Origin: a virus
Virus record (IMG/VR): IMGVR_UViG_3300046674_000101
Location: 1 to 39,009 of that record
Reading direction: 5' to 3' (one strand)
DNA length: 39,009 nucleotides
Shown here: positions 2,096-18,821 of the stretch, piece by piece
Numbering within the stretch: the first letter of the stretch is position 1
How the letters are laid out: each line of letters begins with the position of its first letter
Notes under the pieces: model-generated
Told to the model about the DNA's origin: nothing
Databases searched by the model: none
What the model saw: only the letters and a program-made list of their open reading frames with translations
Made by a program: the position numbers and the translations under genes

Positions 2096-2190
2096 TTCTC
2101 TTCTCTCTTTACAAAGTGTTTGTCTTTGGGGTTACAGCATTGGGTCCCGAGGGGAATCACCCGGGAACACCACCAGCAGCGATAGGTCAC
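2092..2190 (-). CDS. Zinc-ribbon-like microprotein (32 aa)
   Basis: A 32-codon frame runs from GTG at 2190 to TGA at 2092-2094. The protein starts MTYRCWWCSRVIPLG and has C-x2-C followed 10 residues later by a CC pair (TQCCNPKD), then a basic tail (KHFVKREEK). Cysteines 5, 8, 19 and 20 could form a minimal zinc site. The GTG overlaps the TGA of the upstream gene and the TGA overlaps the ATG of the downstream gene, which is double translational coupling. It exactly fills what would otherwise be a 90-base gap. Confidence 0.5.
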   Translation of the reverse strand: MTYRCWWCSRVIPLGTQCCNPKDKHFVKREEK

Positions 2191-2900
2191 AGCAGTTCCG
2201 GGTAGAGTTTGTTCAGGTGCTCGATGGTTGCCTCGACTTCCTTGAGGGCCGCTGCGGTTGCTGTCTGGTATCGAGCCGGTGCGAAGTTTTCCTCACGCGA
2301 TTCGCAGCCAGCCGTGGGACGGTTGTCGATCAGCATCCCGGTGGCCTCAGTAACCAGCAGGATCGTTGCGCACGCCTTCACGGCTCCAAGGTGATGCACG
2401 AGTTCCTTGGGGTCCACACGTTCACCAGAGACCCACGCTTTGATGTGTCGGAGCATTGCGCCCACGTACGTCATCGCCTCGACTTCGGTCTTGAGGTAGT
2501 TGTTCTCGCCGTACTTCCGCTTGCCACTGTGCAGGGCCGCACTTTCGTGCAACTCGGCGATCTGGTGGATCAGGTGGACGGGCGGCTTCTTGTCCCCGTA
2601 GAGTTGCTTGGGGTTCGTGGGCTTTACTTCTGCGGGGATCGCAACCTTTCCCGGGCGGGGATCGTGCGAAGGGTGTTGCAAGATGTCCTGCAGCTTCCTC
2701 GCGTCTCCCTCAGGGTTGATGAACTTCGGCATCGGCATCGGGTGAAGCGGGTCCACCCACCGATCATTCAAGGCGTCGAAGTACGGTTGATCGAAGGGCG
2801 GGAAAGGGCTACCAAGGGGACGGGGTTGATACGGGTGACCCATGGCAGGGCCTTGCTGCATGATCTGGCTCAGGCTGCAGCCAACTGGGGTGGAGTCCAT
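2187..2900 (-). CDS. dATP/dGTP pyrophosphohydrolase-like protein (MazZ/DUF5664 type)
   Basis: 237 residues. The N-terminal ~90 are proline-rich and probably disordered. The C-terminal part resembles the DUF5664/MazZ all-alpha NTP-PPase family: KPPVHLIHQIAELHESAALHS, GKRKYGENNYL, then MLRHIKAWVSGERVDPKE and HHLGAVKACATILL, matching the family's conserved KYG.NNW and RH..AW..GE..D blocks. MazZ in phages with 2-aminoadenine DNA converts dGTP to dGMP for PurZ. No PurZ or DatZ is visible here, so this may be a stand-alone dNTP pyrophosphohydrolase. The ATG at 2900 overlaps the exonuclease end by 31 bases; ATG codons at 2861 or 2843 are possible alternatives without overlap. Confidence 0.65.
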   Translation of the reverse strand: MDSTPVGCSLSQIMQQGPAMGHPYQPRPLGSPFPPFDQPYFDALNDRWVDPLHPMPMPKFINPEGDARKLQDILQHPSHDPRPGKVAIPAEVKPTNPKQLYGDKKPPVHLIHQIAELHESAALHSGKRKYGENNYLKTEVEAMTYVGAMLRHIKAWVSGERVDPKELVHHLGAVKACATILLVTEATGMLIDNRPTAGCESREENFAPARYQTATAAALKEVEATIEHLNKLYPELL

Positions 2901-14244: not shown

Positions 14245-16224
14245 ATGTCAGTCCAATCATTGCGAGCACAGCTAGTCGCTCGACGAACGTATCAACGCCC
14301 CTTGAACCCTGAAGGCACTGTCTTCGAGACTTGGGAAGAAATGGTCGACCGAGTAATCGGCCATCAGATGTGGCTGTGGGATCGCGCTGCGGCTCCCATG
14401 GGGGGCATCGGTCAAGAAGAGTTGCTCGAGTTGAATGAGCTTCGTGAACTGATGATCGACCGAAAGGTTCTGATGTCAGGCCGTACGCTGTGGCTAGGTG
14501 GTACCAAGGTCGCAAAGAAGCGCGAAGCGTCCCAGTTCAACTGCTCGTTCACCCAAGTGGAAACCGTACAAGACATCGTGGATTGTCTGTGGCTCTTGCT
14601 GCAGGGTTGCGGTGTAGGCTTCACGCCTATCGTCGGTCAGCTTACGGGATTCAACAAACGTATCCCGACAATCGAATTCATCCGCTCGACACGCACTGAG
14701 AAAGGTGCACGAGAGCACAACGTAGAGACGTTTGAAAATGGAACATGGACCATCGCAGTCGGTGACAGTGCCGAAGCATGGGCCAAAGCCCTTGGCAAAC
14801 TGGTCGCACATCAGTACAGCGCCGATAAATTTGTATTCGATGCCTCGGCTATACGCCCCGCTGGTGAGAGACTTGCTGGATACGGTTGGATCAGTTCCGG
14901 TGACGAAGCACTGTGCAAAGCAGTCCAGGCCATCTTCGACATCCTCAATCGCCGCGCAGGTTCGCTCCTCACTCGCATCGACATCCTCGACATCGTCAAT
15001 TGGTTGGGCACGATCCTGTCCTCGCGTCGCAGTGCTGAGATTGCTCTCTTTGAGTATGGTCAGGACGAATGGCGAGAGTTCGCTGTAGCCAAGCGCAACT
15101 GGTGGGAATCGAATGTCCAGCGAGCGCAGTCCAATAACAGCCTCTTGTTCCGTCAGAAGCCTGCCCGAGCAGAACTGCAGCACATCTTCGACCTGATGGT
15201 TGAGGCTGGTGGCAGTGAGCCTGGGTTCATCAATGGTGAGACAGCTATCCGAAGGGCCCCTTGGTTCAAGGGTGTCAATCCGTGTGCTGAGATTCTGTTG
15301 GGAAACAAATCGTTCTGTAATTTGACCGAGGTAGACGTTGGAAAATTTTCTGGTGATTCTGCTGGTCTTCGTCGGGCTATTGAGTTGGCTGCTCGTGCGA
15401 ATTACCGTCAGACTTGTGTGGACCTCCGTGATGGAATCCTTCAAGAGGCATGGCACCGCAATAATGATTTCCTTCGTCTTTGTGGCGTGGGTCTCACTGG
15501 TATCGTCCGTAGACCTGATCTGCGAGCATATGACTACACGGAACTCCGACGTACTGCTATCTCTGCTGCTTATGGGATGGCTGATGAGCTTGGGACTCCT
15601 CGTCCGAAGAATGTTACGACCGTGAAACCCTCGGGAACCCTCTCGAAGGTCATGGATACGACTGAAGGCGTACATGCGCCCCTTGGTCGATACATCTTCA
15701 ACAACGTGAACTTCGGTAAGCATGATCCCCTGGTCCCCCTGTGCCGCTCTGCGGGTTACAAGGTGGTTCAGAATCCTAGCGATGCTGAAGCTGTTCTGAT
15801 CACGCTCCCGGTCAAATGGGATACCGTGCCGTTCTCCAAGTTTGTGAAGGATGGTGTTGAGCTTGAAGTGAATCTCGAGACTGCTATTTCGCAGCTTGAG
15901 CGGTACAAGATGCTCATGCAGAACTGGTGCGATCAGAATGTGTCAGCAACGATCAGCTACAGCGTTGAGGAGGTCCCGGCTATCGTCGATTGGCTCCTCA
16001 CGAACTGGGACGATTACGTTGGTGTCTCGTTCTTGTTCCGAGCGGACCCCACGAAGACCGCAAAGGACCTCGGATACCTCTACCTTCCTCAGGAAGTGGT
16101 GACGAAGTCTGTGTATGACGCTTATGTAGCAAATCTTCAACCGATCGATCTGAACAGCACTGCACAGGACCTCGACCTTGAATTGGTTGATGAATGTGCC
16201 GGTGGTGCCTGCCCGATTCGGTGA
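14245..16224 (+). CDS. Class II (adenosylcobalamin-dependent) ribonucleoside-triphosphate reductase
   Basis: 659 residues, similar in plan to the monomeric Lactobacillus leichmannii enzyme (739). It reduces ribonucleotides to deoxyribonucleotides using a thiyl radical generated by adenosylcobalamin. All five functional cysteines are placeable: Cys100 in FNCSF, the thiyl Cys347 in NPCAEI, Cys358 in SFCNLTEV exactly 11 residues later (as 408/419 in the L. leichmannii enzyme), and the C-terminal swinging pair Cys651/Cys656 in ECAGGACPIR (spacing five). Glu349 completes the NxCxE site. The start has GAGAGAG directly upstream. Oxygen-independent, it would supply dNTPs for the T7-like replisome together with ThyX. 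No small subunit or activase is needed. Confidence 0.93.
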   Translation: MSVQSLRAQLVARRTYQRPLNPEGTVFETWEEMVDRVIGHQMWLWDRAAAPMGGIGQEELLELNELRELMIDRKVLMSGRTLWLGGTKVAKKREASQFNCSFTQVETVQDIVDCLWLLLQGCGVGFTPIVGQLTGFNKRIPTIEFIRSTRTEKGAREHNVETFENGTWTIAVGDSAEAWAKALGKLVAHQYSADKFVFDASAIRPAGERLAGYGWISSGDEALCKAVQAIFDILNRRAGSLLTRIDILDIVNWLGTILSSRRSAEIALFEYGQDEWREFAVAKRNWWESNVQRAQSNNSLLFRQKPARAELQHIFDLMVEAGGSEPGFINGETAIRRAPWFKGVNPCAEILLGNKSFCNLTEVDVGKFSGDSAGLRRAIELAARANYRQTCVDLRDGILQEAWHRNNDFLRLCGVGLTGIVRRPDLRAYDYTELRRTAISAAYGMADELGTPRPKNVTTVKPSGTLSKVMDTTEGVHAPLGRYIFNNVNFGKHDPLVPLCRSAGYKVVQNPSDAEAVLITLPVKWDTVPFSKFVKDGVELEVNLETAISQLERYKMLMQNWCDQNVSATISYSVEEVPAIVDWLLTNWDDYVGVSFLFRADPTKTAKDLGYLYLPQEVVTKSVYDAYVANLQPIDLNSTAQDLDLELVDECAGGACPIR

Positions 16225-16229
16225 TCAAA

Positions 16230-17024
16230 TTAGGACCGGCAACAGTAGGCCGCAATCCTATATCCGGTGACTCGCCCTCAGTAGCGCGAAGACAACCCGG
16301 CAATTCAGGTGGGAAGCCTGATCCTAACTAATGTTGTGGCCTAAGCTGACCACAGTCCCATGCGTTGAAAGCGAAGGGTCGTTAAGCTAGTACCAAGGCA
16401 GTAGAGCAGTGACGAGGAACGAAACCAGTCCCTGATCCGGGCGGGTGGATACGTCACCCTATGATGAGCCAAGGTGCGCCCGTAGGAATCATTAGGTAAG
16501 GAAAGCAAACGGAGAATGGGAGGGAAGTGGCTCTGAATCCACAACCCGGATACCTCACCGGCCTAATGAGTAAGAAGTTCTACCCGAAATCCCAAATGCA
16601 ATGTTTGGGTCACGGCAGTACCTCACGAGTTCTACCGTGAGTGGTCTTTCTTGGAACCCCTTGGGTTTCTCCCTCTCTCTCAACTTGAGGGGCCTTGAAA
16701 GATCACCCACAGTAAAACTCTCGATTCCCTCAGCGTCCCTTTTGGAATGCCTGGAGGATTTGAAAAAAATAGATCAATTTCGATAGGCCACCCCTATTAA
16801 CTCTAGGTCCCTTCAGATACACCTCTTCCCCGCAAGGGGTTATTTGGCGCACTAGATAATCTCTAGGTGCCTGAGGTTCCCTCGAGACCCCTGTTTTCAG
16901 GGTGTAGGGGACGGATCATAGGGGGTTCAGAAGGGGATAGCAGGACCTGGATTTATACGTCTAGAACGCTCTAGATCGATTCAGGAACCGCTCGCGCGAC
17001 CCCCTTGGCTACATGGGTAGGTCC
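16230..17024 (+). ncRNA. Candidate large structured noncoding RNA
   Basis: There is no credible gene in 16225-17151, but complementary helices are dense. Closing helix TTAGGA/TCCTAA (16230-16235 with 16322-16327) encloses hairpins CCGG/CCGG with TAGG/CCTA (7-nt loop) and TCAGG/CCTGA (16305-16321, 7-nt loop). Then TGTGG/CCACA (16335-16354) and GGGTG/CACCC (16443-16459, 7-nt loop). TCATTAGG/CCTAATGA (16489-16496 with 16562-16569) encloses GTGG/CCAC. CCCAAA/TTTGGG (16591-16609, 7-nt loop) follows. A 14-nt helix with one mismatch pairs 16637-16650 with 16697-16710. Further on are CCCC-GCAA-GGGG (16828-16839), CCCTG-TTTT-CAGGG (16879-16892) and a last domain closed by GGACCT/AGGTCC (16943-16948 with 17019-17024) around TCTAGA-ACGC-TCTAGA. 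It is probably cotranscribed with the reductase. Size and branching recall ornate phage RNAs such as GOLLD or ROOL, but no match can be claimed. Confidence 0.55.
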
Positions 17025-17106
17025 AATGTCAAACCAGAGGCTCCTAGCATCGCACAGAGACCTAGAAAGCCTATGGAAACCATCGGATAGCATGGACGCA
17101 CGAAAG

Positions 17107-17147
17107 CGCAAAACCCCAGGGGTTACCTAGGGTCTTTGGTTTTCGCG
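17107..17147 (-). terminator. Long hairpin terminator A, possibly bidirectional
   Basis: CGCAAAACC (17107-17115) pairs with GGTTTTCGCG (17138-17147) with one bulge, and inside it on the minus strand ACCCTAGG pairs with CCTGGGGT, followed by TTTT. It lies four bases beyond the stop of the 66-aa minus-strand gene and at the end of the plus-strand structured RNA. It would therefore end early minus-strand transcription and may also stop plus-strand transcription. Confidence 0.65.
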
Positions 17148-17151
17148 TTCG

Positions 17152-17352
17152 TTACTTCTGCCGGTAGAACCCGATGTGGTTGATTGTGTCGATGACCTTG
17201 TGCGCTTTCTCCAGGGTATCAAAGAACCCCTTGGGGTTTCCTAGTGCGTCGATGACTTGAAATTGGACTCCCTTGGTCATCCAATAGCGATAGACCACGA
17301 ACATTCCCTCGTACTCGAACCCTACGGCCTCTGCGTCTGTGTGCTCTGTCAT
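17152..17352 (-). CDS. Hypothetical early protein (66 aa)
   Basis: 66 residues, MTEHTDAEAVGFEYEGMFVV..., with a beta-rich first half and a helix (FFDTLEKAHKVIDTINH). Flanked by the related terminator hairpins A and B, so it may form a single-gene unit. RBS GAGG precedes the ATG. The pattern resembles short proteins that modify or bind a partner; no function is assigned. Confidence 0.6.
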   Translation of the reverse strand: MTEHTDAEAVGFEYEGMFVVYRYWMTKGVQFQVIDALGNPKGFFDTLEKAHKVIDTINHIGFYRQK

Positions 17353-17390
17353 AACATCCTCTCAGTTAGTCCTACCGTTGCGCAAGTAAC

Positions 17391-17432
17391 ACAAAAGACA
17401 AAACCCCAGGGTTACCTAGGGTCTGTCTTGTG
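17391..17432 (-). terminator. Terminator B of the CCTAGG family
   Basis: On the minus strand ACCCTAGG, a TAAC loop, CCTGGGGT and TTTTGTCTTTT form an 8-bp stem (one G-U) with a U-rich tail; flanking AAGAC/GTCTT can lengthen the stem. About 24 bases are shared with terminator A. It lies downstream of the 58-aa gene. Confidence 0.65.
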
Positions 17433-17437
17433 TGCAC

Positions 17438-17614
17438 TCATCGGGGCTCCCTGATTACCCGGATGTTACCCGGAAGACGAATTTCTACAGGTCCCCTGAG
17501 GGTTCGCGCTAGTTCCTCTGCGATTGCCTGGGTTAGTTCGTGGATGAGTGAGGATGTCGGATGGACGGCGCGTGAGTATGCCTCAAGGGCTTTGGTTGCC
17601 TTGCTGGGTCTCAT
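17438..17614 (-). CDS. Hypothetical early protein (58 aa)
   Basis: ATG 17614 to TGA 17438-17440; 58 residues, MRPSKATKALEAYSRAVHPT... then IAEELARTLRGPVEIRLPGN. Basic, helix then beta hairpin. The start overlaps the upstream stop as ATGA. No recognised family. Confidence 0.55.
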   Translation of the reverse strand: MRPSKATKALEAYSRAVHPTSSLIHELTQAIAEELARTLRGPVEIRLPGNIRVIREPR

Positions 17615-18232: not shown

Positions 18233-18282
18233 GGCTAACCCCTTGGTTTCGTTGGTCTCATCAGTGCGATATTGAACCGCAG

Positions 18283-18302
18283 ACCCTAGGTAATCCCAGG
18301 GT
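18283..18302 (+). terminator. Hairpin C of the CCTAGG family, inverted orientation
   Basis: Plus strand reads ACCCTAGGTAATCCCAGGGT followed by TTTCG: a stem ACCCT(A)GG/CC-AGGGT with one bulge. The sequence is the same family as hairpins A and B but reversed, and on the minus strand it lacks a U-run. It sits between the 53-aa gene and ardA, so it may be a processing or stability element rather than an efficient terminator. Confidence 0.4.
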
Positions 18303-18311
18303 TTCGACCTA

Positions 18312-18821
18312 TTAGCTATTGGCGCTAGTGCAAGTGTAGGTTTCCCCGTTGAACGTGAACTCGTACATATCACCACTCAAGCGGCAGTCATTGGCGAACT
18401 TATCGTAATCAATGTATGCCTGAACAGATTCAGGAACCTTACTCAGATAAATCTCATCGAACAGTTCGGAAGCTACATCCACCAGGGAACCTACAGAGAG
18501 GCAAACATCGTAGAGGTTGCCCAAGGCTTCCCGCACGTCCTGACCGTTCACACTCACCAAGTAGAACAAAGAAGCCTTTGCATCCTCCGTAAGCATCTCC
18601 ACTTCATCAAACCAGAACTCCAGGTTAGCCTGATCAACCTTGCAGGCTTCAAACAGTTGTGCATCATCGCCGTCAATGTAATCGATCATGAACTCTTCAA
18701 CCGGCGCACCTGAGCGATTTAATAACGCTGCGGACTTCTCTGCGTACTCTTCGAAGGACGCGAAGTAGAAACCAGTTGCATCAGTGTCGTACGGGTTTGC
18801 GAAATAGTTAGCGATGGTCAT
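18312..18821 (-). CDS. ardA: Antirestriction protein, ArdA-like
   Basis: 169 residues, the usual ArdA length (about 165-170), very acidic throughout. ArdA proteins mimic bent B-form DNA and inhibit type I restriction-modification enzymes. Family-like segments are the N-terminal FYFASFEEYAEKSAALL, EEFMIDYIDGDDAQLFEACK, the middle LFYLVSVNGQDVREALGNLY, and the C-terminal VDVASELFDEIYLSKVPESVQAYIDY with DKFANDC, which matches the conserved Y-[IL]-D-Y-[ED]-x-F-A-x-D block. It has its own host-type promoter upstream and a GGGG-rich ribosome site. Placement in the early module fits protection of entering DNA. Assigned by pattern recall; no alignment was run. Confidence 0.8.
   Translation of the reverse strand: MTIANYFANPYDTDATGFYFASFEEYAEKSAALLNRSGAPVEEFMIDYIDGDDAQLFEACKVDQANLEFWFDEVEMLTEDAKASLFYLVSVNGQDVREALGNLYDVCLSVGSLVDVASELFDEIYLSKVPESVQAYIDYDKFANDCRLSGDMYEFTFNGETYTCTSANS

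Follow-up and report, generated by a model that had tools for sequence, protein, structure and literature searches.

A conserved, modular structured RNA behind the ribonucleotide reductase gene of uncultured T7-like podoviruses

Results

A structured RNA in the gene-free region behind nrdJ

Comparison of related viral contigs from one clade of uncultured T7-like podoviruses revealed what is very probably a conserved structured RNA, located behind the ribonucleotide reductase (RNR) gene. As delimited by sequence comparison, the conserved unit comprises about 490 nt (16225-16714). It is pieced together from exchangeable modules, and its sole constant part is a set of three hairpins at the 3' side, F-F2-G. 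The RNA family is previously undescribed and unmatched in Rfam. Strong covariation and the lack of a relevant Rfam match thus support the original prediction that the RNR gene is followed by a structured non-coding RNA of undescribed class. Its further claim of a single ornate RNA of 0.9 kb does not hold, as the conserved unit is modular and ends at 16714, and evidence for 16715-17151 is thin.

The window is the whole analysed stretch of 39 kb (IMGVR_UViG_3300046674_000101, positions 1-39,009), and the region studied within it spans 16225-17151 (927 nt). By gene content the window is a T7-like podovirus, with a single-subunit RNA polymerase, primase/helicase, and DNA polymerase on the minus strand and terminase, portal, and virion proteins on the plus strand. 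The element directly follows the RNR gene:

14245-16224, plus strand, nrdJ, class II ribonucleotide reductase, identified from its translation (60-94% identity to nrdJ in viral contigs)

Beyond nrdJ lie about 0.9 kb free of genes and then small minus-strand genes, which include an anti-restriction protein (18312-18821, minus strand; PHROG 2059, E 3.5e-10). The gene-free region had been described as lacking a credible gene, and we found only chance ORFs of 61 and 67 aa without a Pfam match. The helices named from the window sequence are likewise present: 16230-16235 with 16322-16327 (6/6 paired), 16489-16496 with 16562-16569 (8/8), 16943-16948 with 17019-17024 (6/6), and 16637-16650 with 16697-16710, in which 12 of 14 pairs are Watson-Crick and one is G.U, leaving the one true mismatch that was claimed. 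Folding energy gave a divided picture. The whole 927 nt fold better than shuffled sequence (z -3.0, from 20 shuffles only), 16225-16640 does not (z +0.4), and most of the signal lies in 16564-16716 (z -3.5). The 5' half looked random by energy but covaries, so energy alone, which misses such RNAs, would have discarded it.

Distribution and genomic position

Relatives (contig labels beginning with L) were gathered by an NrdJ search, by scans of viral contigs with patterns for module B and hairpin F, and by an NrdA search. The DNA behind their nrdJ genes matches the window in blocks separated by gaps and replacements. The F-F2-G core occurs in 27 other IMG/VR contigs, 17 of which also carry B by our own count, with one full copy per genome; in the shortest members (L008, L087, and L103) the core amounts to only about 250 nt. 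A blastn search against 50,697 phage records returned nothing save one 34-base chance match, the B pattern is absent from 84,980 species genomes, and looser B and D patterns added only chance matches in viral contigs, apparently in coding genes. The core is also missing from L193-L195, three records of named phages whose nrdJ is related.

Wherever the contigs of relatives cover the locus, the order RNA polymerase (minus strand), RNR (plus strand), element is constant. At this one genomic position, nrdJ (class II) and nrdA (class I) are swapped in otherwise related phages. The element adjoins nrdA instead of nrdJ in L087, L090/L094, L091, and L103/L115, and in L116-L120 nrdA is followed by a small ORF and then by F-F2-G. 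Since the element is kept despite the exchange of RNR class, it is a feature of the locus that persists when the RNR gene is replaced. In L055 an endonuclease VII-like gene and in L063 an HNH gene lie between nrdJ and module B.

The constant 3' core

The F-F2-G core (16582-16714) consists of three hairpins:

16591-16609, plus strand, hairpin F, 7-bp stem with a GCAAY pentaloop; 100% of cells paired in 16 sequences, double changes at 5 of 8 pairs
16610-16640, plus strand, hairpin F2, variable stem; predicted in nearly all relatives folded singly, in an alignment too poor for pair counting
16633-16714, plus strand, hairpin G, about 29 bp in the window and 27-34 bp in relatives; double changes at 11 of 17 counted pairs; included in model R2
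16668-16681, plus strand, apical all-pyrimidine loop of hairpin G, TCTCCCTCTCTCTC

The apical loop of G has 12-19 nt, is 93-100% pyrimidine, and is of (UC)n type in 14 of 16 folded members; the exceptions, in which it is not UC-rich as folded, are L009 and L097. Compensatory changes in homologues, which the original prediction had named as a check, are abundant: covariation in B, F, and G is strong and exceeds both shuffle and slide controls. For F and G together (16 sequences), 96.6% of cells are paired, double changes occur in 18 of 25 pairs, and the covariation score is 0.592, compared with 0.266 for shuffled and at most 0.158 for slid alignments. A trimmed F+G set (96.5% paired, double changes in 16 of 24 pairs) was used to build a covariance model, R2, which recovers eight contigs on which it was not trained, namely L116-L120 (E 5e-17), L009 (1e-10), and L097/L101 (7e-9); its search of other RNR contigs gave no convincing match. 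Compensatory changes beyond the controls and the recovery of untrained contigs mark the element as a new family of conserved structured RNA. F could be read as coding (LMSHKFYPKS in L100), but relatives do not keep the frame, and this reading was dropped.

The 5' domain

Module B forms the 5' domain and is enclosed in some members by a further helix, P0, not seen in all relatives:

16230-16235 with 16322-16327, plus strand, optional closing helix P0 around B; TTAGGA/TCCTAA in the window, AGTAAG/CTTACT in L008
16264-16300, plus strand, hairpin B1 (CCGG/CCGG and an inner stem, with a UGAC/AGACAA region between); this helix covaries across 11 distinct sequences, with pairing in 99.2% of cells; model R1
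16305-16321, plus strand, hairpin B2 with a conserved 7-nt loop, UGGGAAG/UGGGAUG; double changes at 5 of 7 pairs

Stem variants of B2 among relatives include CAGG/CCTG, CCCG/CGGG, and CTTG/CAAG. Across the 11 distinct sequences of B, 95.5% of cells are paired, both sides change in 11 of 18 pairs, and the covariation score is 0.572 (0.188 shuffled, at most 0.157 slid). No shuffle attains the covariation score of B or of F and G, a count that overstates significance because related sequences are non-independent. The window and L007/L055 share a 63-base piece of B at 98% identity, though their nrdJ DNA is 76% identical. Covariation is uninformative on a pseudoknot that would join the B2 loop to the CCC preceding F, as both are nearly invariant. 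Hammerhead, group I/II intron, and AdoCbl riboswitch readings of B, C, and D found no support by eye.

The strand on which the RNA is read

Three observations agree on the strand. In the helices of B, F, and G, G.U exceeds A.C by 37 to 7, a ratio biased toward G.U on the folded strand because the structures were picked by RNA energies. R2 scores close members at 80-127 bits on the plus strand and at about 17-24 bits on the minus strand in the same places, and the tRNAs of relatives share the strand of the RNR gene. We therefore conclude that the RNA has the same orientation as nrdJ.

A variable slot that holds tRNAs and structured modules

Between B and F lies a slot whose content differs from member to member. 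In the window it holds modules C, D, and E:

16329-16395, plus strand, module C, hairpins 16335-16354 and 16357-16378 with a possible pseudoknot between the first loop and the 3' tail; six relatives
16395-16488, plus strand, module D, helix 16409-16414 with 16452-16457 and a branched interior; compensatory and wobble changes
16489-16569, plus strand, module E, closing helix 16489-16496 with 16562-16569; 90-91% identity with L007/L055

In six relatives C has three different complementary stems (TGTGG/CCACA, GCAGAG/CTCTGC, and ACAGG/CCTGT). The D helix reads GTGACG/CGTCAC in the window and L102 and GTTACG/CGTGAC in L005/L066, while L003/L063 have a 10-bp version in which a U-A pair is changed to C-G and G.U pairs occur. 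The closing helix of E is paired at 8/8 positions in the window, 7/8 in L007, and 7/7 in its counterpart in L054, too few sequences for covariation.

The slot is empty in L008, L087, L091, L095, and L103, and in L100 it holds an endonuclease-like ORF without a Pfam match. Other members combine tRNAs with the modules: tRNA-Trp with C and E in L007/L055, tRNA-Tyr with C and D in L063, and C with an extra-arm tRNA (35.2 bits to the tRNA model, above the Rfam cut-off) in L090/L094. L003/L004 carry a tRNA-like piece that by eye has no D arm, together with C and D. B is absent from L066 and L102, which have tRNA-Tyr and tRNA-Trp, respectively, alongside other modules. In total, six members (L007, L055, L063, L066, L090, and L102) have tRNAs in the variable part. 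In the window slot there is none: ARAGORN found no tRNA, and RF00005 has no match at E<=1, nor is there one at E<=10 across 16150-17200.

Several tRNA-like sequences at these loci are unusual. The L003 piece (2140-2204, plus strand) has a CCA end and, by eye, stands where relatives have normal tRNAs. The tRNA of L090 (10796-10896, minus strand), missed by ARAGORN, has a possible TGA anticodon (Ser-like) and an extra hairpin between the D and anticodon arms. Sequences in L116 (21138-21205) and L118 (27519-27586) score 23.7 bits against a tRNA cut-off of 29, and further tRNA-like sequences lie downstream of G in L054 and L090; all of these have normal-looking D and T arms and an apparently shrunken or odd anticodon arm.

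Comparison with known RNAs

Rfam, at gathering and permissive thresholds, has nothing relevant over the element. The scan of 4,227 models gave no match to group I/II introns, RNase P, tmRNA, or tRNA over 16150-17200 at E<=10, as had been anticipated from the sequence, and the Infernal search that was proposed with it, which included GOLLD, ROOL, and HEARO, likewise gave no relevant match over that interval and threshold, riboswitches included. In relatives, only tRNAs and a sub-threshold hammerhead, the latter away from the element, were found.

GOLLD is a homo-oligomeric RNA cage. A likeness to GOLLD and ROOL had been suggested, and it stands for layout (phage origin, tRNAs inside or adjacent, a constant 3' and a variable 5' part) and fails for sequence and structure. 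GOLLD has a conserved 3' region, a less conserved 5' region, and sometimes tRNAs in a linker, and ROOL is a phage RNA often adjoining tRNA islands (PMC12286853). Like GOLLD, the RNA described here is a phage RNA near or around tRNAs with a constant 3' part and a variable 5' part that may hold them (PMC12286853), but its core is far smaller, we found no common motif, and the GOLLD model (RF02032) matched 0 of 7 clade records at E<=10, in a search in which control genomes matched only below the cut-off. GOLLD is thus nearest in layout, and because RF02032 has no match we do not assign the RNA to it. With ROOL (RF03087) it shares phage origin and a tRNA-island neighbourhood but no model match (0 of 7 records at E<=10, with the control genomes silent too, and a negative cmscan of the window). 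Phage tRNA islands with homing endonuclease genes are comparable in that tRNA-Trp, -Tyr, and Ser-like tRNAs and HNH and endonuclease VII genes occur at the site in relatives; here, however, a conserved RNA framework may or may not contain tRNAs as inserts, and that of the window has none.

The family, supported by covariation, enlarges the small set of large phage RNAs. Its constant core and its slot that accepts tRNAs show a principle similar to that of GOLLD, in an RNA unrelated to it in sequence.

What the RNA may do

The account that we favour as a whole, and to which we give slightly less than an even chance, is a modular plus-strand RNA with a constant 3' core and a variable cargo slot that would serve as the tail of the RNR transcript. 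More tentatively, and with real doubt, we propose as its mechanism a 3' processing or docking element with tRNA-type cargo. In this model the RNR transcript would have the RNA as its 3' part, and rightward transcription of RNR would there meet leftward early transcription. T7-like phages have RNase III processing hairpins on their mRNAs. Judging by shape, an RNase III-type enzyme could enter at the long duplex of G and cut there, as on T7 mRNAs, and an RNA-binding partner from host or phage could dock on the exposed pyrimidine loop. The tRNAs and structured cargo might be freed by this processing, which would leave the RNR mRNA with its 3' end protected. The length and near-perfect pairing of G and its conserved pyrimidine loop speak for this explanation. 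G resembles the T7-like RNase III hairpins as a long imperfect hairpin behind a gene, and it is unlike them in its UC-only loop and conserved companion hairpins, a comparison made by shape alone. A simple role as transcript tail does not explain the compensatory changes in B, C, and D.

The structure kept in C and D would suit a free-standing, trans-acting scaffold similar to GOLLD, in which a 3' domain folds or assembles and a variable 5' linker carries tRNA cargo, as in the layout described for GOLLD (PMC12286853). The silent GOLLD and ROOL models, the core of only about 250 nt in L008, L087, and L103, and the several members without cargo make this unlikely. The RNA could also represent a new class of phage RNA in which a constant hairpin core with a UC-only loop is an exchangeable platform for tRNA or structured cargo, independent of RNR class. 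Such a platform would affect a host factor in trans, perhaps by decoying a protein that binds pyrimidines; this reading we consider speculative and rather improbable. Binding of Rho, or of some other RNA-binding protein of the host, by the UC loop would, if real, make this a clear and testable case of phage takeover by RNA.

Because the element of the window lies between the rightward RNR gene and leftward small genes, it might also mark the boundary of converging operons, with hairpins that stop or slow the polymerase or a UC loop that recruits or decoys Rho. The primary site of Rho prefers UC-only-type sequence, which the loop of G resembles, and possible terminator hairpins are seen by eye downstream of G in some relatives. 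G is not followed by a U tract, however, a terminator scan of the region scored no higher than shuffles, with F2 rather than G as its sole plus-strand hit, the 12-19-nt loop is short for a rut site, and B and the slot would go unexplained; in the literature on Rho and UC loops and on C-rich sRNA loops we found no direct precedent. We regard such a boundary as quite unlikely. Less probable still is a decaying ordinary phage tRNA island, in which B, C, D, and E would be broken tRNAs or spacers and the hairpins processing signals. The tRNA-Trp (L007, L055, and L102), tRNA-Tyr (L063 and L066), extra-arm tRNA (L090), and nearby tRNA-like sequences invite this reading, but the window has no tRNA match (E<=1; E<=10 across the region), C and D retain compensatory changes rather than decay, and F-F2-G persists where tRNAs are absent. 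The long inverted repeat, the polypyrimidine tract, the mosaic breakpoints, and the adjacent endonuclease genes would fit a DNA-level origin, packaging, or recombination hairpin; the excess of G.U over A.C (37 vs 7) and the far higher plus-strand scores make that extremely improbable.

The region downstream of the core and a dispersed repeat

The nearest relative, L063, is 91% identical to the window over 16564-16918, with module D replaced, and the near-identity ends at 16918. This stretch contains a possible 3' extension of the RNA:

16826-16841, plus strand, GCAA-loop hairpin, retained in L063, where both stem and loop differ

In the window the hairpin reads CCCC-GCAA-GGGG and in L063 CCACC-UUCG-GGUGG, within flanks that are otherwise near-identical. 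The GCAA stem and the TCTAGA-ACGC-TCTAGA hairpin named in the original prediction are both present in the window; the TCTAGA hairpin and the 16943/17019 helix are unconserved in the comparison with relatives. Past 16918 little is conserved except a separate repeat hairpin (17099-17140) that recurs elsewhere.

Sequences with sub-threshold similarity to hammerhead ribozymes occur at other places. A candidate in the window (18241-18308, minus strand) reaches 24.8 bits against RF00008 (E 0.0017 when 161 bases were searched), below the Rfam cut-off, and is also readable as type II: GGTCGAAAC...TAGGGTC...CTGATGAGACC. Two others, L100:5769-5832 (plus strand, 32.1 bits) and L103:2221-2290 (minus strand, 28.8 bits), match RF02276 below its cut-off of 37. 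A short repeat, TTACCTAGGGTCT, with hairpin surroundings is found in intergenic positions on both strands of the window (17099-17155 and 17388-17444, plus; 18317-18261 and 14067-14011, minus), and one copy is part of the hammerhead candidate of the window. The repeat could be a phage promoter, a processing site, or a degenerate ribozyme.
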